Assembly: GCA_944372455.1 (NCBI GenBank)
Contig: CALVZF010000008.1
Coordinates: forward strand, 1 to 43,618
Direction: 5' to 3'
Source: an uncultured Bacilli bacterium
Lineage (GTDB): Bacteria; Bacillota_I; Bacilli_A; RF39; UBA660
DNA: 43,618 nucleotides
Position numbers and translations under genes: made by a program. Within the stretch, counting starts at the first letter, position 1. Each line of letters begins with the position of its first letter. Below the pieces are notes generated by a model that was not told the DNA's origin, made no database searches, and saw only the letters and a list, made by a program, of their open reading frames with translations. Below are positions 6,309-31,542 of this stretch, in pieces.

Positions 6309-6638
6309 TTATTTTTCTTCGTTTACTACTTGTGCTAAGGCACCAAAAGAAAGATCCATAGCCTTCTTAAAATATTTCTCTATTTTTTTAGAAACTGACA
6401 GTCCTACATTTGAAACAGTATTCCCATAATCTTTTTTAGTATTACCTACATAATCTTTTAAATCTATTTTTTTACCTGCTTTAACATCAGATTCAAATTC
6501 TTTTATTTGTTCTTTAGTAAGAGCTACTTTTTTGTATTCTTGATATTCATAATATCCATTAGCCTGTGATATAAATAAAGCAATAAATACAACAAATAAA
6601 AAAATCATAACATTTCTAAAAATTTTACTAGCTTTCAT
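6309..6638 (-). CDS. Small membrane protein after spoIIP, possibly YqxA-like, 109 aa
   Basis: There is one N-terminal membrane segment (about residues 8-26, rich in F, V, I) ending in QANGYYEYQEY, then a charged region and an amphipathic C-terminal helix. In B. subtilis spoIIP is followed by yqxA, a roughly 110-residue protein with an N-terminal hydrophobic segment. Position, size and the QAN motif fit, but I could not align the rest, so the name is tentative. The start is the ATG with AAGGA 8 nt upstream. It overlaps the spoIIP end by 11 bases, so the two are co-transcribed and probably expressed in the mother cell. Confidence 0.75.
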   Translation of the reverse strand: MKASKIFRNVMIFLFVVFIALFISQANGYYEYQEYKKVALTKEQIKEFESDVKAGKKIDLKDYVGNTKKDYGNTVSNVGLSVSKKIEKYFKKAMDLSFGALAQVVNEEK

Positions 6639-7647
6639 TTTTATCATTCCTTATATATTTTACTAATACATCTGATAAAACATCTACGCTATTTTTAACC
6701 TCCTCTATTGTATTTTCAAATCCCCCTACTTCTATTAATAATAAATTATTACTAATATCTTGATTATAAACTCCATTTACACTTTTTCCTTGTTTTTGTA
6801 ATATTCCTTTACTGATTCCTTTAACCTCACTATTTAACATTGTATCTAATTCTTTAGCAAATTTCATATTTTCTGTATAGTTAGGATTTTCTAGTCCAAT
6901 AACAAAATAAAATCTTGCATAACTTTTTTCTCCTACTTTAATTGTAGTTTTATCTTTAGAAACTGAATCTCTATGTATATCTAAAAAATATTTCAAACTT
7001 TTATTTTTACTTTTAGCATCATTTATAAGCATTCTGGTAACTTTATAAGCAGAACTTCCACTAAAGTTATTTGCTTTTAAAATTTCTGTCACATTAGTTT
7101 CTTCAACAATGCTTTTTATATTATTTTTATTTAAATTTTCTCTTATCATGTATGAAGTCATCATAACATTTGGTTTAATATTATATACTTCTAAATTATC
7201 CATACTATAATTTTCTAATTGATGAGAATTATAAATATATACAATTGGATCTTTAATTTCTTGTGGATTGGGATCTTCCACATATTGTGAAACTTTCTCA
7301 AGTTCTTCGATATTATCATAGTTATCTTGGTGTTCATTATCTATTTTGACAACGTTTGAAGCAATATTAGAATTAAGTGCAGTAACGGGATGTGTAATAT
7401 CAATATTTGAAAATAGTTTTACAATATCATTAATTAATTGACTAGAATTATATTGTTTTTTTGTTATATTATTTGAAGAATTTAAAAGTGTTTTAATAAA
7501 TGTTTCATTATCTATTGTAATTTTTTTATTTTTTAAATATGAAAATGTTAAATTTGAAAAAAGATATATGCATAATATTAAAATAAATATTTTAAGTATT
7601 TTTAATTTTCTTTTATTTAATTTTTTACTTTTAAATCTTTTTTTCAT
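6628..7647 (-). CDS. spoIIP: Stage II sporulation protein P, 339 aa
   Basis: A cell-wall amidase and endopeptidase that works with SpoIID and SpoIIM to thin septal peptidoglycan during engulfment. It has an N-terminal membrane anchor (about residues 15-40), a variable linker, then the SpoIIP domain with VYIYNSHQLENY, a conserved Thr/Val-Glu region (IVEETNVTEIL), SAYKVTRMLI, FLDIHRDSV, FYFVIGLENPNYTEN, GISKGILQKQG and GVYNQDISNNLLLIEVGG. The zinc-ligand His/Glu positions of the family appear kept. The start is the ATG preceded by AAAGGA at 9 nt. It is divergent from the Tyr/Pro-rich gene, with a SigE-like -10 just upstream. It is diagnostic of endospore formation. Confidence 0.93.
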   Translation of the reverse strand: MKKRFKSKKLNKRKLKILKIFILILCIYLFSNLTFSYLKNKKITIDNETFIKTLLNSSNNITKKQYNSSQLINDIVKLFSNIDITHPVTALNSNIASNVVKIDNEHQDNYDNIEELEKVSQYVEDPNPQEIKDPIVYIYNSHQLENYSMDNLEVYNIKPNVMMTSYMIRENLNKNNIKSIVEETNVTEILKANNFSGSSAYKVTRMLINDAKSKNKSLKYFLDIHRDSVSKDKTTIKVGEKSYARFYFVIGLENPNYTENMKFAKELDTMLNSEVKGISKGILQKQGKSVNGVYNQDISNNLLLIEVGGFENTIEEVKNSVDVLSDVLVKYIRNDKNES

Positions 7648-7666
7648 AATCACCATTCCTTTATTA

Positions 7667-20569: not shown

Positions 20570-21763
20570 TTATAAATATTTCACTCTCATAATATCATAT
20601 TTATTAACTTTAAAATCGCAGTTTATTTTTACAATCTGCCTTGGATGACGTGCAACATTTAGCTTACTATTATCTTCATCTAAAATTTGTTCTACTTTAA
20701 AAGTTATAGTATCTGTTTTAGGTCCAAATATCTCTATTTCATCTCCAACACTAAAATAATTTCTTTGTTCAATAGTTGCCATTTTTTTATCCGTATCGTA
20801 ATCCAGTACTATTCCTAAAAAATCTTGATTTGATAACTCTTGTCTTCCTAAATAGTATTGTTCTTCTACTCCAGGCTTTTTATCAAAAAATTGTGGAACA
20901 TTATCCCTGTTTGCAACTCTATTCAAAACTTTAATATAATTATTATCAAACTCTTTTTTATTTAAATAATCATCTATACATCTTCTATAAGTATTTACTA
21001 CAGTAGCAATATAGTATATTGATCTCATTCTACCTTCTATTTTTAAAGATTTAACTTTTAAATCAATTAAATCAGGAATAAACTTTATCATTGATAAATC
21101 TTTAGAACACATAGTAAATTTTACATCGTCAATAATTTCATTTTTATCACTATCAAATAAATCAAAATTCCATCTACAAATTTGGGAACATCCTCCCCTA
21201 TTAGAATCTCTATCAGTCATATAATTTGATAAAACACATCTACCAGATAATCCTACACACATCGCACCATGAATAAATACTTCAGTATCCATATGTGTTT
21301 TTTCAATAATATCTTTAATATTTTCTTTATTAGTTTCTCTAGCTAAAACAATTCTTTTAACCCCTAGATTTTGATAAAATTTTGCTGCTTCATAATTCAT
21401 ACAAGAAGCTTGAGTAGATAAGTGAATTTCTATTTCAGGGCAGATTTTTTTAATATACATAATACATCCTAAATCAGAAACTATTAGTGCATCTACTCCT
21501 ATATTAGATAATTTTAAAATATATTCTTTTAGTCCATTAAAGTTTTTATTATGAAAAATAATATTTACTGTAACATACACTTTTTTATTTAAATTATGAG
21601 CATATTCTACAGCTTCTTTTATTTCATCAATACTAAAATTAGTAGCATTAGCTCTTAGACTAAAATCTCTTCCACCAATATATACTGCATCTGCTCCATA
21701 CATTAATGCCCATTTAAGTCTTTCTAAATCTCCAGCAGGCGCTAATAACTCTATATTACTCAT
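20570..21763 (-). CDS. trhP2: U32 family tRNA hydroxylation protein TrhP2 (YrrO), 397 aa
   Basis: A U32 peptidase-family protein of the YrrO type, which acts with TrhP1 in hydroxylating wobble U34 of tRNA (ho5U), a prephenate-dependent pathway. It starts with IELLAPAGDLERLKWALMYGADAVYIGG, then has LIVSDLGCIMYI and STQASCMNY, and the U32 signature EVFIHGAMCVGLSGRCVLSNYM with conserved cysteines, plus RGGCSQICRW. The C-terminal beta domain is present (YLGRQELSNQDFLGIVL). The start overlaps the trhP1 stop by 8 bases. In B. subtilis yrrM-yrrN-yrrO are adjacent; here trmR is separated from this pair by the pilin block. Confidence 0.92.
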   Translation of the reverse strand: MSNIELLAPAGDLERLKWALMYGADAVYIGGRDFSLRANATNFSIDEIKEAVEYAHNLNKKVYVTVNIIFHNKNFNGLKEYILKLSNIGVDALIVSDLGCIMYIKKICPEIEIHLSTQASCMNYEAAKFYQNLGVKRIVLARETNKENIKDIIEKTHMDTEVFIHGAMCVGLSGRCVLSNYMTDRDSNRGGCSQICRWNFDLFDSDKNEIIDDVKFTMCSKDLSMIKFIPDLIDLKVKSLKIEGRMRSIYYIATVVNTYRRCIDDYLNKKEFDNNYIKVLNRVANRDNVPQFFDKKPGVEEQYYLGRQELSNQDFLGIVLDYDTDKKMATIEQRNYFSVGDEIEIFGPKTDTITFKVEQILDEDNSKLNVARHPRQIVKINCDFKVNKYDIMRVKYL

Positions 21764-22631
21764 TTACATCACTCTTTACTTTATAAATAGTTTCTTTATC
21801 TAAAAAACCTCTATATGAATTATTTAATTTATTAGACAAAATTTGTAATTTCTCATCACTTAAATTATCTTGGCTTGCCAAATCTAAAGCTTCTTTGAAT
21901 GTATTAACTACTAACTCTATATTGTCAATCATATAAGAATTTATAACTAAATAATCAATACTATTTTTAACACAAATATTTATACTATCTATAGCGTTTA
22001 AAATATTTCCGTTTACTATATGACTTCCATTATCATTTTCATAGATTGGATACAAAGTATCTTTATTTTTAATATAGTACGTTTTATTTTTTTTATCTTT
22101 ATTTATATAATTTAAATAATTAGATAACAAATTTCTGTTAGAACTAAAAATGTCATACATTCCATAATTAATCATAAATATTTTAGAATCAGTATTATTC
22201 TTAATTTCTATTATTTCATTTAAAGTAATATCAGGAGAAACTATAGCGCTTTTAACTCCTAATTTATTCCATTCATTAATAGTTATATAATTAGTAGTTG
22301 CATGAATATTTCCCCATATTAAATTAAGATTTAGTTTTAATCTATTATTTAATTGAAAAATAGAGATATCATCAAAAATAATTCCTGAAATATTTAATTT
22401 ACTTAATTCAATTAAAATATTACTAATTTTATCTAATTCATCATTATGTATTAATTTATTAAGGGATAAAAATATATTTTTATTTTCATATTTTTCTAAT
22501 ATTTCTTTTAACTCTTCTAAGTTTATTTCTAAAATATTTAATGAGTTAAAGTTTTTAAGTCCGATTATATAATTTTCTAGTTCTAAATTTAATTCATTTA
22601 GTTTATTTACCATTAGACAAAGTTTACTCAT
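21756..22631 (-). CDS. trhP1: U32-like protein TrhP1 (YrrN), divergent, 291 aa
   Basis: Assigned by position directly before trhP2 and by a U32-like pattern: an N-terminal barrel start, IWGNIHATTNYITINEWNKLG, IVSPDITLNEIIEI, MINYGMYDIFSSNR, then LYPIYENDNGSHIVNGNIL and IDYLVINSYMIDN, which match the second half of YrrN-type proteins. The cysteine-rich U32 signature is not evident, as in other YrrN proteins. It is more divergent than its neighbours. AGGAAGTG lies 5 nt before the ATG. It starts 11 bases after the last pilin gene, so it is likely transcribed together with the pilin block. Confidence 0.8.
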   Translation of the reverse strand: MSKLCLMVNKLNELNLELENYIIGLKNFNSLNILEINLEELKEILEKYENKNIFLSLNKLIHNDELDKISNILIELSKLNISGIIFDDISIFQLNNRLKLNLNLIWGNIHATTNYITINEWNKLGVKSAIVSPDITLNEIIEIKNNTDSKIFMINYGMYDIFSSNRNLLSNYLNYINKDKKNKTYYIKNKDTLYPIYENDNGSHIVNGNILNAIDSINICVKNSIDYLVINSYMIDNIELVVNTFKEALDLASQDNLSDEKLQILSNKLNNSYRGFLDKETIYKVKSDVNE

Positions 22632-22642
22632 GAAAACACTTC

Positions 22643-23149
22643 CTATACGTTTATATCAGTTATTTCTTCATTAATATCATTTACTGAATATATTTCAATG
22701 TTATGTTGTTCATTATTATAAGATAAAGGGATAGTAAGTTTCAAGATTTTTGTATCATTATCAGTAATTATTTTTACTTTTGGTTTATCAAGTTTTATTT
22801 CAAGATCATTTGCCACTGTTTTATCTCCATTATAAGATATATATTTTTCACCACTAGACACTACTAATTTTTTAGTTTCACCAGTATTTATATCGTAAGT
22901 TATTTCTAAATTTTGATTACTAGAATTCCATACTATATTTTTAATATTATATTTATAAAAATCTGGAGCAATTTTTTTATAAACAAGTGATTTAAACTTA
23001 TAAATTTCGTTATTGGCATATACTTGTGACATTTTCTTATTTAAAGAAACTACTATAGAAAACATATTAATTATTACTATAGAAGCAAGTGCAAAACTAA
23101 TTAATAATTCATATAACATATAACCTTTTTTATTTAAAATTTTTTTCAT
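22643..23149 (-). CDS. Prepilin-like protein F (minor pseudopilin), 168 aa
   Basis: It begins with a short basic leader and KKGYMLYELLISFALASIVIINMFSIVV: a class III-type signal with Gly at the cleavage site, Glu at +5 and a hydrophobic helix. The body is small and mostly beta (ITYDINTGETKKLVVSSGEKYISYNG). This fits a minor pseudopilin of a type IV pilus or ComG-like machine. GGTGGGAG precedes the ATG, which overlaps the stop of the previous pilin gene (ATGA). It is last of six prepilin-like genes. The specific subunit type is not identifiable. Confidence 0.85.
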   Translation of the reverse strand: MKKILNKKGYMLYELLISFALASIVIINMFSIVVSLNKKMSQVYANNEIYKFKSLVYKKIAPDFYKYNIKNIVWNSSNQNLEITYDINTGETKKLVVSSGEKYISYNGDKTVANDLEIKLDKPKVKIITDNDTKILKLTIPLSYNNEQHNIEIYSVNDINEEITDINV

Positions 23150-23628
23150 AATTCTCCCACCAAATCAATATATGCAAAATAATATTTGTCATTTCTTTTA
23201 AATTCAGCAATTAAGGTTCCAACTGAATCTTCATTAGTTTCAAAATCTTGCCAATTTAAGTAGTCTTTAAATTCTTCGTCAATACTAGTTTGATTTAATA
23301 ATTCTTTTTCTTTTGTAGGAATGGTTACAAAAATTTTATTTATACTTAATTCATTTAAAATTACAGCTGGAATAAAGGTTTCATCCAATACCATTAAATT
23401 TTCTTCATTTAAACTGTAAGTAATATCTCTTAAATAATTATTATTAATAATATAATTTTTTACAGTATTAAGTTTATATAAATCATCAATAACATTATAT
23501 CTTTCTTTACTTTCATAGTTTTTTATTGTTGATGAAGTAAAGGTATAAATACTTATTGAGAAAACAGCAATTACTGAAATTGCAACTATAGTTTCTACCA
23601 TCATAAATCCTTTATTATTTATTTTCAC
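23146..23628 (-). CDS. Prepilin-like protein E (GTG start), 160 aa
   Basis: NNKGFMMVETIVAISVIAVFSISIYTFTSS is a standard prepilin signal: basic leader, G/F cleavage site, Glu at +5 and a hydrophobic helix. The C-terminal part is short and soluble, with no recognised domain. The GTG start is chosen because GAGGTG lies 6 nt upstream; the ATG codons in frame are inside the signal and would destroy it. It couples to the next gene by a 4-base overlap and follows the large pilin D by 14 bases. Confidence 0.83.
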   Translation of the reverse strand: MKINNKGFMMVETIVAISVIAVFSISIYTFTSSTIKNYESKERYNVIDDLYKLNTVKNYIINNNYLRDITYSLNEENLMVLDETFIPAVILNELSINKIFVTIPTKEKELLNQTSIDEEFKDYLNWQDFETNEDSVGTLIAEFKRNDKYYFAYIDLVGEL

Positions 23629-23642
23629 ACGTTTCACCTCAC

Positions 23643-25472
23643 TTAAGGAATTAACACCGCTCTAAATCCGGAAGAAAAACTATTAGATCCATCTGTTGGA
23701 TTGCCTGTTAAAAAGATTCCAAATTGTTTAGAAACTGTGGTACCAGAATTACATGAACCTCCTCTTCTAAAAAATGGATAATCTTTAACGAAATAGTAAT
23801 ACGGATAATCGCCATACCATTTTTGTGTCTCATAGATGGCATCTCCTAATATTGTATTATCTTTTGTGACAGATGCTGTAAGAGATTTATAATTAATTTC
23901 ATATAAATCATAATATTTTAAATTTGGAAAATCATACCCTTCCGTATATTCTTCATATACCTCTCCATTCCAAAATGTATTTCCGTTAAATCCAGAATTG
24001 TTATACTTATTTCCTGAAGAATTATTTGTATTTAGCATAACAGTTTGTTCAATTCCTACCATGTCATATACTCCATATATTGTTCCTGTGGAACTTGCAC
24101 CAGTTCCTTTTAATAGTTCTTTTTGAGTGCCACCTGATGAAATTAAATTACCATCATAGGTATAAGAGCCATTTTCAATGCAAGTTATGCCTTCATCTCC
24201 GAAAGTTCCTGCACTTCTTCCTGTATATTTTTTATAACTATTGTTAAGGTAAACTTCTTTGTTTGCTCCTGTAAAGTTACTATTTCCCATTTTTCCATAT
24301 TTACTTTGACTTAAGTATGCGATTGCTCCCCATTCAATATTTTTCATTGAGTGAGTATCTACTTTGTTATTTAATCCATAAGTATCATTTCCAGAAAAAG
24401 TAACAGTACCTCCATTTTTAGCTAATGTTCCTCCTGCGAATTTTAGTGCCGTTTGAAATTGGGTTGCAATATTTTGTTTGCTTAGTATAGTAATATCAGG
24501 TTTAATTAAAGGAGTACTTGTGGTTCCACCAGTAATAAATTTACCTACCCAAAATCCAGTTAATTCTTTATCCCAGCCAGATTGATCATAAGGAGTTTCC
24601 TTATATACTTTACTTCCATCTCTAAATGCTGGATGTGTATAGTATGCTTCTTGTGCTACCCCATCATAATTTATATTAGCTCCTGTGTTTCTTGTATGGG
24701 TTTCAAATACTATATCTATTTCTGGAGGACTAGCTATTTCTACATTACTTCCAACGTTACTTGGTATTTTATATTTAAATCTTGGAATCCATACCCACAT
24801 TGTATTTATATCCTCCATTTTTATTTCGGTTAAAGCTTCTGCATTTTTATAAGTTTCTCTAGAAGATTTAGTTACAGTAACCGCATTAGCCCACCATTGA
24901 TTATCGTAATCATACCATTTTTCTGTATCACTAGCTTTTAACCATTTACCAGTTGCTTCATCATAAATTACTGGAAACATACCATCTGCTAATACTGGAA
25001 TATTCGCGCCACTATTATCTTTATATTTATCTTCGTTTTCTTGATTATAATTTTCTTCTTCTTTAATTTGTTCTTCAGTTAAACACATTGATAAATAATC
25101 TTTATTTTCTATATACAAGTAAGAAAAAATTCCTTCTGAATTTTTTTTTACTGCAATTCCACTTTCAGGATCAAATTCTTTTTTTGTGATTGGATTTTTA
25201 GGAATTTCATCTATAAAATTAAAGTTAAGTAAATCTTTTAGAGTTATTTTGTAACAAGTTTCTTTATCAATTATATTATTTACTAATGGTTTATGGTCAT
25301 TGACATATAATTTAGCATTTGCAATAAATTGATCTAGATAACTTTGGTATTGTTCTTTAGAATTTTTTCTAGTAAGACTCAAAATAGAAGTAGTAGCAAT
25401 GGTAACAATTAAAAGCATTATAGCAATACTAGCTAAAACTTCTATTAATGTAAATCCATTTTTATTTTTCAT
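23643..25472 (-). CDS. Very long prepilin-like protein D with FGE/C-type-lectin-like C-terminal part, 609 aa
   Basis: Residues 1-35 are a canonical prepilin signal (MKNKNGFTLIEVLASIAIML). Residues to about 125 form a pilin-like stem that is paralogous to pilin A. The remaining 450 or so residues are shared with protein C and contain MWVWIPRFKY, LTGFWVGKF, VDTHSMKNIEWGAIAYLSQS, KGTGASSTGTIYGVYDMVG, and a final RRGGSCN ... GFRAVLIP. The last two match the YDMxGN and RGGSWN ... GFR pattern of formylglycine-generating-enzyme-like (C-type lectin fold) domains. So this is probably a pilus-displayed binding domain, not an enzyme. GAGGTG lies 6 nt before the ATG. Ordinary pseudopilins are 100-250 residues. 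Confidence 0.88.
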   Translation of the reverse strand: MKNKNGFTLIEVLASIAIMLLIVTIATTSILSLTRKNSKEQYQSYLDQFIANAKLYVNDHKPLVNNIIDKETCYKITLKDLLNFNFIDEIPKNPITKKEFDPESGIAVKKNSEGIFSYLYIENKDYLSMCLTEEQIKEEENYNQENEDKYKDNSGANIPVLADGMFPVIYDEATGKWLKASDTEKWYDYDNQWWANAVTVTKSSRETYKNAEALTEIKMEDINTMWVWIPRFKYKIPSNVGSNVEIASPPEIDIVFETHTRNTGANINYDGVAQEAYYTHPAFRDGSKVYKETPYDQSGWDKELTGFWVGKFITGGTTSTPLIKPDITILSKQNIATQFQTALKFAGGTLAKNGGTVTFSGNDTYGLNNKVDTHSMKNIEWGAIAYLSQSKYGKMGNSNFTGANKEVYLNNSYKKYTGRSAGTFGDEGITCIENGSYTYDGNLISSGGTQKELLKGTGASSTGTIYGVYDMVGIEQTVMLNTNNSSGNKYNNSGFNGNTFWNGEVYEEYTEGYDFPNLKYYDLYEINYKSLTASVTKDNTILGDAIYETQKWYGDYPYYYFVKDYPFFRRGGSCNSGTTVSKQFGIFLTGNPTDGSNSFSSGFRAVLIP

Positions 25473-25482
25473 TTTTATCACC

Positions 25483-27246
25483 TCAATTATTAACTAGTAC
25501 AACTCTTAAATATGCAAAACTTGATACTGAATTTTTAAAGCTATAATTCAATGGATGTCCTGATCTATGTAAATAATAACCCATATCTCTAGGAGACTGA
25601 CGTGTAGAAATAATTTGAGCGTCAAATGATTCCCAAGTGGCATCTCCATATTTTTTATTATCAACATAATAATTATTATTATTTCTACTATCGTAAATAT
25701 ATTCATCGTAATATTTTTTATCCGGATAAGGATTACTCACAGAACCACTCCATGTCGGAATATCAATAGTTTCATATAGTTTACTTTTATATGCTATCAT
25801 TACTAAAGGACCACTTGATGTACTGTTAAATAAATCATAAACTCCATAAATGTTACTTGTTGAACTTGCACCAGTTCCTTTACCTAACTCTCCGGATGTA
25901 TAACAATTAGTAGCATATGTTGTGTTATTACATTTATATCCATTGTAACCATAATTACCATACTGAAAATTATCGCTTTCCCCCCCGCTACTCCTACCAG
26001 TTATGTGGGTAGTTTTACTATTATTAGTATAGATCTCTTCTAAATTAAATTTTTTGTTACCTTTAAACCCATAATCAGAATATGCTAAATATATTACTGC
26101 TCCCCATTCAGTGTTTTTAATTAAATGAGTATCTACACTTGTTGTAAATCCATAAACGTTTTGATCAGCTGTCATATTGTGTGCAGCATTAAAGTAGGTC
26201 TGAACAAAATTAGTACTATTTAGTGTATTAGGATTATTTGAAGTTATGGCTTCACAATCTGGTCTTATTAAAAAATTATTTATAGTGTGAGTGGTATTAT
26301 CATCATAAAAACCAGCATCAAATTTACTCATCCAAAAACCAGCTAATTCTTTATCTCCAAAGGTAAATGCTTCATTAATAACAAAAGAAGAATTTGTAGG
26401 ATTAGTTTGTTCTTTGTTTATAAATCTAATATCAAATTTTCCTAAGTTATCTTTACTTTCTCCACCTAAATATTTATACGCATTCTTTCTATATTCATAT
26501 CTTGGAATCCAGACCCACATACTGTTCATCATTTTCACATTAATTTTTTCTCCAAGCTTTTCTTTTTTCAGTTGTCCATATTCATCAAACCAATTATCAC
26601 GATATTCCTCTTTAACAGTAACTGCATTAGCCCATTGTTGCTTAGAATAGTTGTACCATCTTTTGGTAGTAGTTGCTATCCAAGTGTTTTCTTCTTCACT
26701 ATATACAACAGGAATCATGTAATCTCCTAACTCAGGATTATTTGCATTACTAGTATCATCTGGTACAATTGGAATATTAGGATCATTTAATAATATATTA
26801 TTAGTACTACCTTCATTAAGATCTTCATAGTATTCATCATCATTTTGTTTAAATTGCACAGTTTTACAATTTAAATCTTTTTCAGTATATTCATATTTGT
26901 AACTATTACCAGATTTTGATACTTTAATAACATAGTCATCTAGAACAACTTCTTTTTTGGTACTAGGATCTATGATCGGATTATCAATTAATCCTACTTC
27001 TATTAATTCATCTAAAGTAACACAAAGATTACCATTTTCAACGGCATCTATTGAAGTATCACTAAGTTCTTTATCTTCAACATATATTTGAGCACTATTT
27101 TCAAGGGAAGTTGCTAATTGAGTACTTATTTTATTTTTATTTTTGCTTAATATTGCACTTAATGATGGAAAAATAACAGCTGAGATTAATAATAATAATG
27201 CAATTACCGATAATAACTCTACGAGAGTAAATCCTTTTTTATTCAT
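25483..27246 (-). CDS. Very long prepilin-like protein C with FGE/C-type-lectin-like C-terminal part, 587 aa
   Basis: The prepilin signal is MNKKGFTLVELLSVIALLLL. A stem of about 130 residues is followed by a long C-terminal region that parallels protein D block by block: KRWYNYSKQQWANAVTV, MNSMWVWIPRYEY, LAGFWMSKF, VDTHLIKNTEWGAVIYLAYS, KGTGASSTSNIYGVYDLFN. Its last 45 residues have lost the RGGSWN motif and end in LRVVLVNN. Between shared blocks the two proteins differ strongly in loops, as expected of a diversified binding surface. The start has AGGTG 6 nt upstream, overlapping the previous stop codon (TAG). Confidence 0.87.
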   Translation of the reverse strand: MNKKGFTLVELLSVIALLLLISAVIFPSLSAILSKNKNKISTQLATSLENSAQIYVEDKELSDTSIDAVENGNLCVTLDELIEVGLIDNPIIDPSTKKEVVLDDYVIKVSKSGNSYKYEYTEKDLNCKTVQFKQNDDEYYEDLNEGSTNNILLNDPNIPIVPDDTSNANNPELGDYMIPVVYSEEENTWIATTTKRWYNYSKQQWANAVTVKEEYRDNWFDEYGQLKKEKLGEKINVKMMNSMWVWIPRYEYRKNAYKYLGGESKDNLGKFDIRFINKEQTNPTNSSFVINEAFTFGDKELAGFWMSKFDAGFYDDNTTHTINNFLIRPDCEAITSNNPNTLNSTNFVQTYFNAAHNMTADQNVYGFTTSVDTHLIKNTEWGAVIYLAYSDYGFKGNKKFNLEEIYTNNSKTTHITGRSSGGESDNFQYGNYGYNGYKCNNTTYATNCYTSGELGKGTGASSTSNIYGVYDLFNSTSSGPLVMIAYKSKLYETIDIPTWSGSVSNPYPDKKYYDEYIYDSRNNNNYYVDNKKYGDATWESFDAQIISTRQSPRDMGYYLHRSGHPLNYSFKNSVSSFAYLRVVLVNN

Positions 27247-27255
27247 TTTTATCAC

Positions 27256-28677
27256 CTATTCAGTTATTCCATTAATATTCAAAATTTTATTTTTAGCATC
27301 GTTAATAGCATTATCAATATTATTAGTGTCATAATAAGTAGGAGCTACTTTAAATGAATTATCCATTGTTTTTTTCAGTACTTCTTGTTTTTCTTCTTCA
27401 ATTTGAGGATCTATGTATACATAAATTAATGGTACATATTCATTTAGTGGACTATCAATTGATGTATTAAAATTAAAATTATATGTATCATCACCAGTAG
27501 TATTTGTTTTATTAATTTCTATGTAAGCAAAATAATATTTGTCTTTGTAATTATTTTGTTTTGGAGTTGGATTAAAATTTAAATTGATTTCTTTGTTTGA
27601 ATCATTAACTTTATATTTCCAAATAATAGAATAATCGTCATAATGACTGGTAATAAGTGTCCCTATTTTTCCATCAGCTGACTTAAATAATATATCATTT
27701 TCACAGTATACACTTGCACGTCCAGAATCTGTTACCCATCCTTTAGATTTAAACACGTCAATTAAATTGCTTCTCGTAAGACCATTGTTTGCTAATTCTT
27801 CGCTGCTAATCATTGCACAATTTTCTGGTTCACCATCATTTTTACAAGCATAATTACTTATATAACCTTCTTCACTTTGAAGTGTTGGCTGATTTTGAAA
27901 ATAACTGTAATATTCATTATGAGTTGTACAGCTTCCTTTTTGGTTATTTTTATTTGAATATGTTGCTATATCTCTATCTGTAAGATTATATGATCCGTCA
28001 TCATCTATCTTATAAGTTTCTACTTCTATATTACCACAGCAGGTACCTGTACAATAGCGGTCAGCATTTGTAAATATATCTGATGTCCACTGTCTATATG
28101 TAATTACTTTGAACGTGTTATCACTAGTAAATTTTAAACCAGCATAGTGATTTGAATAAAATCTTCCAACCTCTTTATCTAAATTAACATCATATATTGT
28201 AAAAAAATAATAATATGGAGATTCTTTAAAAGTTTGCTTAAAAACAAGATACTGATTATGATTAGCATAATAATCATTAACAGTAGTAGCAACTATATTA
28301 ACTTTTTTATAATCATAAGTTTCACTATATGTAGAATCACTTGAAAACATATTTATATTGGATTCAAGTGTAGATTCATTGTTTTGCTCTTTTAGTGCTT
28401 CTTCTATTTCGTGATCTAGATTTTCAATTTTTTCTCTATAAGTATCAGTATTATCGTTATCTGTGTATATAGTACTATACAAAAATATTTTTTCTGTGAA
28501 AGGATTTTCATAATTATCAATTTCATTAATGGTATTACTCGCACTCTTTGAAATATAATTATAACTGTTTTTTCCACTAATTAAAAAATATAATATATAA
28601 AATACCATCAAAATCATTACTATAACTAAAGCATACAAAGTACTAGAAATTATAAAACCATTTTTTTCTTTCTTCAT
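27256..28677 (-). CDS. Prepilin-like protein B, Cys-rich, lacking Glu5, 473 aa
   Basis: The N terminus (MKKEKNGFIISSTLYALVIV) has the basic leader, the G/F junction and the hydrophobic helix of a prepilin, but Ser replaces Glu at +5. That feature is typical of tip-located GspK-type subunits. The 420-residue extracytoplasmic part has several Cys pairs (RYCTGTCCGN, GSCTTH, NYACKNDGEPENCAM, VYCEND) and no domain I recognise. AGGTG precedes the ATG. It lies between pilin A and large pilin C with small gaps. Size, position and the missing Glu suggest, but do not prove, a tip initiator role. Confidence 0.78.
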   Translation of the reverse strand: MKKEKNGFIISSTLYALVIVMILMVFYILYFLISGKNSYNYISKSASNTINEIDNYENPFTEKIFLYSTIYTDNDNTDTYREKIENLDHEIEEALKEQNNESTLESNINMFSSDSTYSETYDYKKVNIVATTVNDYYANHNQYLVFKQTFKESPYYYFFTIYDVNLDKEVGRFYSNHYAGLKFTSDNTFKVITYRQWTSDIFTNADRYCTGTCCGNIEVETYKIDDDGSYNLTDRDIATYSNKNNQKGSCTTHNEYYSYFQNQPTLQSEEGYISNYACKNDGEPENCAMISSEELANNGLTRSNLIDVFKSKGWVTDSGRASVYCENDILFKSADGKIGTLITSHYDDYSIIWKYKVNDSNKEINLNFNPTPKQNNYKDKYYFAYIEINKTNTTGDDTYNFNFNTSIDSPLNEYVPLIYVYIDPQIEEEKQEVLKKTMDNSFKVAPTYYDTNNIDNAINDAKNKILNINGITE

Positions 28678-28700
28678 ATTAATCACCTATATATTATTAT

Positions 28701-29078
28701 TTATGATAAATTTTCTATATACTGATATTCTAAATTTTCATTTACTCTAGTGATTTTGACACCACTATTAGAACTAAACTTTTCATTGGTATTAGGATTT
28801 ATAGGAATATCATCTAAGTAATTTCCATCATATAACATTTTTAATGAAATATTATAATATCCGGTAGTGTTTATATTTTCAATTACAAGGTTTTTATTAT
28901 CTTTGGTATAATTTTTAGCTTCTGCAACAAATTGATTTATGTATTCATTATATTGTTTATTGGTATTCTTATTTTTAATACTTAGAATTGACGTAGTAAC
29001 AAGTGTAGTTATTATTAACATTATAGTAATAGTTGCTAAAAGTTCTATTAGAGTAAAGCCATTTTTGCTTATTTTCAT
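28701..29078 (-). CDS. Prepilin-like protein A, 125 aa
   Basis: KNGFTLIELLATITIMLIIT is a textbook prepilin signal (Gly cleavage site, Phe +1, Glu +5). The rest aligns with the stem of protein D: YINQFVAEAKNY against YLDQFIANAKLY, LDDIPINPNTNEKF against IDEIPKNPITKKEF, and an ending YQYIENLS against YLYIENKDYLS. It stops just where protein D continues into its display region. It may therefore be the major or a filler subunit. The start has GGTGGGA 5 nt upstream; 13 earlier in-frame codons have no ribosome binding site. It is first in the pilin block, behind its own -10 element. Confidence 0.87.
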   Translation of the reverse strand: MKISKNGFTLIELLATITIMLIITTLVTTSILSIKNKNTNKQYNEYINQFVAEAKNYTKDNKNLVIENINTTGYYNISLKMLYDGNYLDDIPINPNTNEKFSSNSGVKITRVNENLEYQYIENLS

Positions 29079-29107
29079 AATTATCCCACCGTTTCTACTA
29101 TATATAT

Positions 29108-29116
29108 AGTATAACA
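29108..29116 (-). promoter_or_regulatory. Extended -10 promoter for the pilin block
   Basis: TGTTATACT on the minus strand, 30 bases before the pilin A start and 17 bases past the trmR stop. A weak AT-rich hairpin with a T-rich tail (around 29117-29150) spans the trmR end. The pilin block may thus be transcribed separately from trmR. Confidence 0.55.
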
Positions 29117-29133
29117 TAAAATAAAAAGAATAA

Positions 29134-29715
29134 CTATATCTTTTTAGATATACTTATTCCGTCTCCTACATCATAAAAGGATGTTTTAAATTCTTTATTT
29201 TCTTTTAAAAAAATGATATATTTTTTTATTTTATTTACTAATTGAATAGTATTTTTATTTTTAGTGTTCTCAATATGTTCAACTAAACCATGAAATTTTA
29301 GATTATCAGATATGATTACTCCATTTGGATTTAAATTATTTTTAAATTTTTCAAAAAATTTAATATATTGTGCCTTAGCAGCATCTATAAAAATCATATC
29401 GTATTTTCTTTTATCTTCATATACAAAGGCATCTATATTATGTATTTCTATTCTATTTTCTAAGTTTAAAGTTTTAATGTTTTTAATAGCTTCATCATAT
29501 CTTAAAACATCTCTTTCAATAGTAGTTACCTTAATATCATTACAAATTAGAGCCATTTTAATTGCTGAATAACCAATCGCACTACCTATTTCTAAAATAT
29601 TTTTAATTTGATTATTTTTAATATAATTATTAATAAAATTTATTCCTTCTTTTTGGATTATTGGTATATTATTTTCTTTTGCATACTTTTCAATTATCTT
29701 TATTTGATCTACCAT
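29134..29715 (-). CDS. trmR: tRNA 5-hydroxyuridine methyltransferase TrmR (YrrM), 193 aa
   Basis: A SAM-dependent O-methyltransferase of the class I fold. It has IKNILEIGSAIGYSAIKMA (SAM motif I), VTTIERD, IEIHNIDAF, YDMIFIDAAKAQYIKFFEKF and GVIISDNLKFHG, as in YrrM. TrmR methylates 5-hydroxyuridine at tRNA position 34 to 5-methoxyuridine, the step after TrhP1/TrhP2. The start is ambiguous: an ATG at 29724 is 2 nt from AAAGGA, whereas the one used is 11 nt from it. It overlaps the mltG stop by 7 bases, as in the conserved yrrL-yrrM pair. Confidence 0.9.
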   Translation of the reverse strand: MVDQIKIIEKYAKENNIPIIQKEGINFINNYIKNNQIKNILEIGSAIGYSAIKMALICNDIKVTTIERDVLRYDEAIKNIKTLNLENRIEIHNIDAFVYEDKRKYDMIFIDAAKAQYIKFFEKFKNNLNPNGVIISDNLKFHGLVEHIENTKNKNTIQLVNKIKKYIIFLKENKEFKTSFYDVGDGISISKKI

Positions 29716-30788
29716 GTAAACCATAATCCTTTATCTTTTAATTCTTGAATTTTATTATCATGTTCAGTTTGAGTTTTAGTAAAATATACATCTCTATTTT
29801 TATCCGCCACAAAATATAAATAGTCATTATCATTAGGGTAAATTGCAGCTTCTATTGCATCTTTACTAGGATTAGATACTGGTCCGACTGGAAGTTTTCC
29901 TTTCATATTTGGACCTCTTGTATTGTAAGCATTATAAGTATTTATTTCTTTAGTGGTTAAATCTCTTTCACTCATATCTACTTTAAATGCATAATAAGTA
30001 GTTACATCACTACCTATATTCATATTTTTAGCTATTCTATTTTGGAAAACACCTATAATATTTTTTCTATCATCTTGATCTATTCCTTCTAATTCTGCAA
30101 TAGAAGCAAGGGTCATTAGTTCATGTATACTATATTTACTGTTTTCAATATCTTTTTTATATTTACTAAGTCTCATGTCTGTTTCGTCAAGCATTTTGCT
30201 TACAATATCTTGGATACTTACTTTTTTATCTTCAAAAGTATAGGTATTTGGATATAAGTAACCTTCTAATGGATAGTAAATATTCGGATTTATAATTTCT
30301 TCATCTAAAAACCAATATTTTTCAATTAAAGTTTCTATATATTCTTCATCAGTCATAGCTTTTAAAAATTCGTCTTTAGTATTATCTGTGTTTTCTTCAA
30401 TTACAGAAGCTATTTGTCTAATATTTAATCCTTCTTTAAAAAGTACAGTAATGGCATTAGGATTAACTGTGTCCCCTTTCCTAATTTTATTTACTATTTC
30501 TTCCAAATTCATATTTTGCTTTAATTCAAAGTATCCACCTTTTAAATCTTTTATATCATTTAATTTTAGATATACTTTAAATATTATTTCACTTCTAATT
30601 AATTTTTTTTCTTTTAAAATTTGGGAAATTTCAGAAGAAGTATTGCCTTCTTTTATTTCAACTAAAATTACTTTATCATTTTTACTATCAACACTACCAA
30701 TTCCATATTTATATAAAAGACTTAGAGAAATTATTAAAGTTAGAAAAAATGCAACCAATAACAATGCTATATTTCTTAATTTTCTCAT
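29709..30788 (-). CDS. mltG: Endolytic transglycosylase MltG (YrrL), 359 aa
   Basis: Cuts nascent peptidoglycan strands at the membrane surface. There is one N-terminal membrane segment (about residues 8-28), a LysM-like region (VEIKEGNTSSEISQIL, then GGYFELKQNMNLEEIVNKI), and the YceG domain with EGYLYPNTYTF, LMTLASIAELEG holding the catalytic Glu, VFQNRIAKNMNIGSDVTTYYA and NTYNAYNTRGP ... GPVSNPSKDAIEAA. The length fits. The ATG has no evident Shine-Dalgarno, and a terminator-like hairpin lies just upstream, so expression may be attenuated relative to yrzB. Confidence 0.94.
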   Translation of the reverse strand: MRKLRNIALLLVAFFLTLIISLSLLYKYGIGSVDSKNDKVILVEIKEGNTSSEISQILKEKKLIRSEIIFKVYLKLNDIKDLKGGYFELKQNMNLEEIVNKIRKGDTVNPNAITVLFKEGLNIRQIASVIEENTDNTKDEFLKAMTDEEYIETLIEKYWFLDEEIINPNIYYPLEGYLYPNTYTFEDKKVSIQDIVSKMLDETDMRLSKYKKDIENSKYSIHELMTLASIAELEGIDQDDRKNIIGVFQNRIAKNMNIGSDVTTYYAFKVDMSERDLTTKEINTYNAYNTRGPNMKGKLPVGPVSNPSKDAIEAAIYPNDNDYLYFVADKNRDVYFTKTQTEHDNKIQELKDKGLWFTW

Positions 30789-30802
30789 GTACTACAAATA
30801 TA

Positions 30803-30823
30803 AAAACGAGAATTACTCGTTTT
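30803..30823 (-). terminator. Hairpin/attenuator between yrzB and mltG
   Basis: On the minus strand AAAACGAG-TAATT-CTCGTTTT is followed by T and AT-rich sequence. The loop contains the yrzB stop codon TAA. It can act as a weak intrinsic terminator before mltG. Confidence 0.6.
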
Positions 30824-31109
30824 CCCCTTCTTCTTTATCTTTCTTATTTTCATCTTGTAGTGTTTCTAAAATATTTTCAATAATATTCCATTCTTTTTCA
30901 GTTTCAATTGGATCTAATTTAGTAGTTTTACAACTTGGATCATATATTGAAGCATATACTTTGATATTTCCTATTTCATCTTTGCTGTTATCAGTGTATA
31001 CTATATAATTTTTCTTAGTTTCTTCAGATTCAAAAGTAAATAAAATTTCACATTCTATTTCTTTGCCTTCATCATTTATTACTACAAACTTATTATTTTG
31101 TTCTTCCAT
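30813..31109 (-). CDS. yrzB: DUF1292 family protein YrzB, 98 aa
   Basis: A small acidic protein with the DUF1292 core: FVVINDEGKEIECEILFTFE, then NYIVYTDNS, KVYASIYDP and a C-terminal acidic helix (EWNIIENILETL). It is found in Bacillota between ruvX and mltG, exactly the arrangement here; its function is unknown. AAAGGAG lies about 7 nt before the ATG. It begins one base after the ruvX stop. Confidence 0.9.
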   Translation of the reverse strand: MEEQNNKFVVINDEGKEIECEILFTFESEETKKNYIVYTDNSKDEIGNIKVYASIYDPSCKTTKLDPIETEKEWNIIENILETLQDENKKDKEEGENE

Positions 31110-31110
31110 T

Positions 31111-31542
31111 CTAATTCTCCTTTTCTTTATTTGCGCTATCTAAAAATGACTGTAATATGACTTGCGCAGCCATCTTATCAATAACTTGTTTTCTTTTTTT
31201 TCTACTTACATTATTACTAATTAAAAATTTTTCTTGTGAAACGGTAGATAATCTTTCATCTTGCATAATTACTTCCAAGTTTAATTCTTTTTCTAACATT
31301 TCTTTAAAATCAAGTGTTTTTAAAGCTCTTTCTCCGATAGTATTGTTCATATTTTTAGGTAATCCAAGTACTATTTTTTGGATTTGTTCTTCTATTATTA
31401 ATCCTTTTAGTTTTTCTATTGTTGCCTTATAATTTTTATCATCTATTGTAAAAACTTCATAAGGAAGCGCAATAATTCCATTATTATCACTTATCGCAAT
31501 ACCTAAAGTTTTAGTTCCTAAATCTAAACCTATATATTTCAT
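31111..31542 (-). CDS. ruvX: Putative pre-16S rRNA nuclease RuvX/YqgF (YrrK), 143 aa
   Basis: An RNase H-like fold protein linked to 16S rRNA 5' end processing. It has [16 protein letters not shown] at the N terminus with the catalytic Asp, [33 protein letters not shown] with acidic residues of the active site, and [15 protein letters not shown] near the C terminus. The length is standard. The start overlaps the ireB stop (ATGA). It is part of the conserved ireB-ruvX-yrzB set. Confidence 0.95.

Follow-up and report, generated by a model that had tools for sequence, protein, structure and literature searches.

Type IV pilin-like proteins with C-type-lectin heads of probable retroelement-diversified ancestry in an uncultured Bacilli bacterium

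Two adjacent genes of an uncultured Bacilli bacterium, coding for proteins C and D, probably represent type IV pilin-like proteins that display large heads with the formylglycine-generating enzyme (FGE) subtype of the C-type-lectin fold; the heads would descend from targets of diversity-generating retroelements (DGRs) and are no longer DGR-driven here. The genes lie in the window, the whole 43,618-nucleotide stretch of DNA that was analyzed, and the nearest public relatives found for it are uncultured Bacilli from rabbit-gut-type metagenomes. The DGR ancestry rests on homology, since no reverse transcriptase (RT), template repeat, or Avd was found in the window's own genome.

Stems, heads, and the pilin island

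The two proteins are organized as follows.

23643-25481, minus strand: open reading frame of D, 612 aa from GTG
25005-25481, minus strand: type IV prepilin stem of D, residues 1 to 159, with the methylation motif GFTLIE (PF07963, 29.8 bits; TIGR02532, 25.3 bits)
23646-25004, minus strand: predicted FGE-subtype C-type-lectin head of D, residues 160 to 612 (AlphaFold2 model, Foldseek match to TaqVP, family alignment A1)
23646-23777, minus strand: C-terminal counterpart of a DGR variable repeat in D, residues ~569 to 612, PFFRRGGSCN...GFRAVLIP (alignment with relatives' template and variable repeats; entropy/adenine rho 0.65)
25483-27255, minus strand: open reading frame of C, 590 aa from GTG
26743-27255, minus strand: type IV prepilin stem of C, residues 1 to 171 (PF07963, 24.5 bits; TIGR02532, 21.1 bits)
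25486-26742, minus strand: head of C, of D's family, residues 172 to 590, with a degenerate C-terminal variable-repeat equivalent (identity to D, AlphaFold2 core, Foldseek match to TaqVP)

A preliminary description of this DNA had proposed prepilin stems on both proteins, and this is borne out by profile searches, in which C and D exceed the curated cut-offs for the prepilin N-methylation signal (21.2 bits for PF07963 and 16.3 bits for TIGR02532), an N-terminal leader with a GFxxxE motif. A head of ~430 residues is joined to each stem, and the two proteins share 32% identity over their full length (594 aligned columns, E 1e-51). The sequence blocks quoted in that description (WVWIPR, GFW, VDTH..K..EWGA, GTGASST..IYGVYD, and in D RGGSCN...GFRAVL) are present in the reading frames, with the correction that the RGG/FR tail motif is gone from C, which ends in HRSGHP...YLRVVLVNN. 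The blocks are invariant or nearly so across 27 relatives, which together with the alignment of C to D places them far above chance, and divergent loops separate them, as had been proposed.

The head of D is predicted to be an FGE-type C-type-lectin fold, in agreement with what had been proposed from the sequence blocks. An AlphaFold2 model built from the 27-sequence family alignment has pLDDT values of 80 to 95 over most of the head, and a Foldseek search of the PDB returned TaqVP (5vf4) as the top match (E 4e-6, probability 1.0), followed by weak matches to the MTD tropism determinant and to FGE and EgtB enzymes. The model of C has a confident core, with residues 544 to 580 below pLDDT 50 and the final ~45 residues at low confidence, and its match to TaqVP (E 8.5e-3, probability 0.93) is suggestive only that the fold is shared. 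Sequence searches of Pfam, NCBIfam, and the PDB with C and D gave, for the heads, only matches that belong to the stem or to chance.

The same models bear on whether the heads are pilus-tethered enzymes of the FGE/EgtB kind, acting as oxidases. The fold class is common to the head and FGE, FGE and EgtB are among the weak Foldseek matches, and two paralogs have weak, below-cut-off matches to PF03781. FGE catalysis requires a cysteine pair, whereas no cysteine occurs among the invariant or nearly invariant columns of the 27-sequence alignment, so that catalysis of this kind is unlikely and an FGE-type identity for the heads was rejected. The strongest structural match, TaqVP, is moreover a binding protein, and hypermutation of the final codons in relatives (see below) fits binding and not catalysis; we therefore regard an oxidase function as highly improbable.

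C and D belong to a six-gene pilin island, the other four members of which are listed here.

28701-29117, minus strand: headless prepilin, 138 aa, the closest relative of D's stem (PF07963, 22.0 bits)
27256-28686, minus strand: 476-aa protein with a ComGG/PilX-like N-terminal segment (GFIISSTLYALV...), its stem resembling a head-bearing stem in a genome of the same genus, G044
23146-23637, minus strand: minor-pilin-like protein, 163 aa, with a ComGE/ComGF-like N terminus, below cut-off
22643-23149, minus strand: minor-pilin-like protein, 168 aa, with weak prepilin matches only and a 4-base overlap with the 163-aa reading frame

The stem of D is 49% identical to the headless pilin over 120 aa (E 4e-29), as expected from the addition of a head to a duplicated pilin, and the stem of the 476-aa protein shares 53% identity over 30 aa with a head-module gene of G044 (L100, 6372-7931). 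The island is missing at this point in G044, in which the coordinates place the methyltransferase and U32-peptidase genes that border it here only ~80 bp apart, and a different head-bearing gene lies in the same neighborhood, between U32a and hrcA. We note that the hrcA-to-ruvX region (20570-31542 of the window; L100 in G044) is thus a turnover site, with the island here and another head gene in G044. The window also codes for a SpoIIP-like protein (6628-7656; PF07454, 175 bits), in a genome of 1.15 Mb.

Functions for pilus assembly are encoded elsewhere in the genome, including a prepilin peptidase (PF01478) on contig C2 and T2SSE assembly ATPases (PF00437) on contigs C27, C2, and C6; Tad-like genes and a GspF/PilC-like 584-aa protein, as read from their sequences, adjoin the peptidase. 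The peptidase would cleave the stems of C and D, and the ATPases would drive their packing into a pilus, leaving the head exposed off the cell. Its bulk suggests a location most likely at or near the pilus tip.

DGR cassettes and the head family in relatives

A sample of 193 genomes from the order contains 73 with the head, which all belong to one family; by genus, the head is found in 42 of 83. The richest genomes, G004 and G021, have as many as 30 scored matches. In many relatives the head is the target of a DGR cassette; downstream of its gene come the template repeat, an RT of ~350 residues, and, as usual components, a MutS_I-domain protein and Avd (NF033474, 80.4 bits against a cut-off of 80). 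Comparison of the template repeat with the variable repeat, formed by the final ~45 head codons, places 256 of 266 mismatches in 17 cassettes on template adenines (19/19 in G061; 16/16 twice in G059; 15/15 and 21/24 in G065; 9/9 in G021; 15/15 in G123; 14/14 in G161; 18/18 in G179; 11/12 in G180; 22/24 in G079; 11/12 in G131; 11/11 in G122; 23/26 in G215; 10/10 in G067; and 13/13 in G037 and 12/12 in G014, both of these pairs joining sequences at contig ends). A contig of G153 is the same as that of G061, and the two were counted once. The targeted heads belong to the C and D family along their entire length (profile scores of up to 580 bits), and the targets in G123 (L224) and G161 (L226) are prepilin-stemmed, with the architecture of C and D. 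The preliminary description had suggested that ends of this type are DGR targets, and for the relatives this holds, both in the adenine-directed mismatches and in the two prepilin-stemmed genes; it does not extend to the window's genome, in which there is neither RT nor Avd.

Members of the strong RT clade (matches with E below 1e-100) occur in 25 of the 193 genomes. Of these 25, 24 have the head, against 73 in the whole sample of 193 (Fisher P 8e-11, a value that is only indicative because the genomes are not independent). The clade is not seen in 49 of the 73 head-bearing genomes, and among module-rich relatives or locus genomes, 16 of 23 have an RT.

In G021, G061, and G065, most of the distant paralogs lack a clean template match, and we do not count them as current DGR targets. 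In G021, against a background of ordinary drift, 287 of 588 mismatches in the paralogs away from the cassette fall at template adenines (21% of template positions), and one paralog is near-clean, with mismatches at 14 A, 1 T, and 1 G. This enrichment away from the cassette suggests that written heads have been copied elsewhere.

Several other loci were seen in these genomes. A prepilin-stemmed head beside an RT in G064 (L143) was left out of the cassette count because no template repeat was found on its contig or by genome-wide DNA search; its variable-repeat pairs differ at third positions too. The same genome carries two further DGRs with prepilin-type targets, one with a DUF6273-headed pilin (L145:3672-4826; variable/template mismatches at 17 A and 3 T) and one with a 263-aa pilin without a known head domain (L144:5170-5961; 20 A and 1 C), and DGR use on type IV pilins thus extends beyond the FGE-like head. 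A decaying DGR in G026 (L191, contig C13), with a truncated RT and damaged Avd and MutS_I-like genes, adjoins head genes, one of which is prepilin-stemmed, and may represent a step on the way to the condition seen in the window's genome. An RT match in G133 (C2:307-1278) is interrupted in frame by seven TAG codons and by no other stop codon and may derive from a TAG-recoded phage.

The head repertoire of the window's genome

The 1.15-Mb genome of the window has 17 head copies and one end-fragment at a contig end, distributed over three kinds of stem. Three heads are prepilin-stemmed (C, D, and C22:5714-7564), two are on another membrane stem (a copy on contig C1, and C27:10390-12177), and the remainder with a readable N terminus have a TasA-like look, a label given on N-terminal appearance, with no TasA match in Pfam. 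The head of D is 57% and 56% identical to the heads on non-pilin stems on contigs C1 and C27 and ~40% identical to that of its neighbor C, which indicates exchange of stems.

Many of the TasA-like copies have a dockerin type I domain nested in the head between WAN and IPRYKY (e.g., L052:4244-6289, L058:9886-11895, and L055:1-1830), and of the copies tested from this genome, three have the dockerin-like insertion above the Pfam cut-off. A single cohesin-domain protein is encoded (C16:13456-14838), and a cohesin-dockerin link between it and these heads is possible. Contigs C13, C17, C20, C21, C27, C31, C36, C37, C39, and C16 stop within the 5' region that head genes share, and because the assembly breaks within near-identical stems, the stems at these points are unreadable. 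A pattern search of IMG/VR found no relatives with the patterns used, and a viral origin of the heads is not backed.

Searches of this genome (G000) with RVT_1 and with a family-specific profile of 13 RT sequences gave no RT matches, NF033474 gave no Avd match, and no template repeat was found for the variable-repeat equivalents of D and C; the same-genus genome G044 likewise has no match to the family RT profile. The earlier remark that no DGR is seen holds for RT, template repeat, and Avd alike, in an assembly that is 94.65% complete. With all three tested and not found, a strict definition excludes D and C from the current DGR variable proteins, although they belong to the same protein family as those of the relatives.

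An incomplete assembly would leave room for RT, Avd, and template repeat on the missing sequence, from which they could act in trans on C and D as active targets, and the frequency of RT among module-rich relatives or locus genomes lends this some weight. However, for all 18 copies the assembly runs past the 3' end by 5 to 48 kb, over the interval where the relatives carry the cassette, and neither RT nor Avd is there, so that their absence beside the copies is not simply a gap. G044 also lacks an RT, and the C-terminal codons of the 18 copies differ at rates of 0.45, 0.44, and 0.52 at codon positions 1, 2, and 3, as in ordinary divergence and unlike the cognate variable repeats of the relatives. 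Variation at all three positions implies that these codons are not currently DGR-written; active targeting in trans is therefore quite unlikely, and the current hypervariation proposed earlier for the ends of C and D is unsupported here.

A possible trace of former targeting lies in the amino acid entropy of the C-terminal region among the copies, which correlates with the adenine content of the relatives' templates (Spearman 0.65, P 7e-6). This could reflect former targeting, or the placement of template adenines where the fold tolerates change. An alternative explanation is an ordinary family of gut adhesins that was never DGR-diversified in this lineage and resembles DGR variable proteins only through a shared fold; in its favor are a genus with no DGR and the many head-bearing genomes without the strong RT clade. 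Against this, the DGR-targeted heads are of the same family over their full length, with clean template/variable pairs, and the variability in the window's genome falls at template-adenine positions. We consider this explanation unlikely, if less so than targeting in trans, and favor DGR ancestry.

A repertoire like Neisseria pilE/pilS, with gene conversion from silent copies rewriting the expressed heads, could account for the many paralogs with near-identical blocks, the many contigs that break in the shared stem, and a codon identity that is well over expectation in some blocks and uneven along the gene. Despite this unevenness, a GENECONV-like permutation test of silent sites in 12 paralogs did not reach significance (maximum, P 0.85; sum, P 0.08), and we do not claim gene conversion among the paralogs. 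No stemless silent cassettes were seen, and the copies in G044 each have their own stem and a full open reading frame; such a system is quite unlikely here.

The reading that we prefer is thus of pilin-like proteins with heads of DGR ancestry, in which the C-terminal region of D would form the ligand-binding face, as in DGR variable proteins of this fold. In relatives this region is rewritten by the DGR, and in the window's genome it would be fixed, the lineage having once had or borrowed a DGR and then lost it; we infer this loss in preference to a DGR never having been present. The fixed repertoire would now diversify only as copies are duplicated, stems are exchanged, and ordinary mutations accrue. 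For C, whose tail is degenerate, binding by the C-terminal face may have been lost.

Comparable systems and implications

TaqVP, a DGR variable protein of a Thermus aquaticus prophage, has its variable region at the extreme C terminus (residues 341 to 381; PDB 5vf4; PMC6328139). It is the top Foldseek match of both D and C and has in common with them the FGE-subtype C-type-lectin fold and a C-terminal variable region; it is phage-borne and single-domain with a DGR of its own, whereas D and C are fusions to prepilin stems in a genome with no DGR. In cyanobacteria, remote variable proteins and paralogs have been described in which C-type-lectin modules are dispersed within the genome, some no longer near an RT, and the authors suggest that the machinery is removed once an optimal variant is selected (PMC7517822). 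Intragenomic dispersal and copies away from the RT are shared features, but the cyanobacterial modules are mostly with cytosolic kinase or peptidase domains, in contrast to the surface-fiber stems and tens of copies in ~1.2-Mb genomes seen here.

Pilins have also been associated with DGRs. The tip pilins of Bacteroides type V pili are diversified by DGRs (reviewed in PMC12632263), and the parallel is a pilus-tip binding domain under DGR diversification in gut bacteria, with the tip placement here being a putative one; those are lipoprotein pili of Bacteroidales, whereas the present stems are type IV prepilins and TasA-like proteins of a Bacilli family. DUF1566 DGR targets, as cited in PMC6642488, are noted with putative pilin parts, which similarly ties a C-type-lectin fold to putative pilin structures; the head family described here differs in having no Pfam match, and its prepilin status and template/variable pairs were tested directly. 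A large survey of DGR targets includes membrane-anchored, adhesion-type cellular targets, and the word pilin is absent from it (PMC8144416). Our literature search, with most subscription papers lying outside it, found no paper that combines these features for this lineage, and the apparent novelty seems to lie in the combination of an unnamed head family, prepilin and TasA-like stems, tens of copies in ~1.2-Mb genomes, and lineages without a mutator.

C and D likely serve in attachment within the gut, to variable targets such as glycans, other cells, or the host surface. More tentatively, and as something we hold to be possible rather than probable, a single surface-fiber gene may receive DGR-written heads and duplication may move the finished heads to other stems (prepilin, TasA-like, and anchors), building an archive of tens of frozen specificities, with some lineages, such as that of the window, dropping the machine and relying on the archive. 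The adenine-enriched paralogs of G021 and the one near-clean copy among them support such an archive.

Through these observations, hypermutation by DGRs is linked to display on type IV pilins in a family of Bacilli with reduced genomes, in which tens of kilobases per genome can be devoted to one head family. The defined boundaries between head and stem are usable for binding screens, and the lineages with an active DGR, with a decaying one (G026), and with none (the window's genome) offer a natural comparison for the fate of hypervariable proteins after loss of the mutator.
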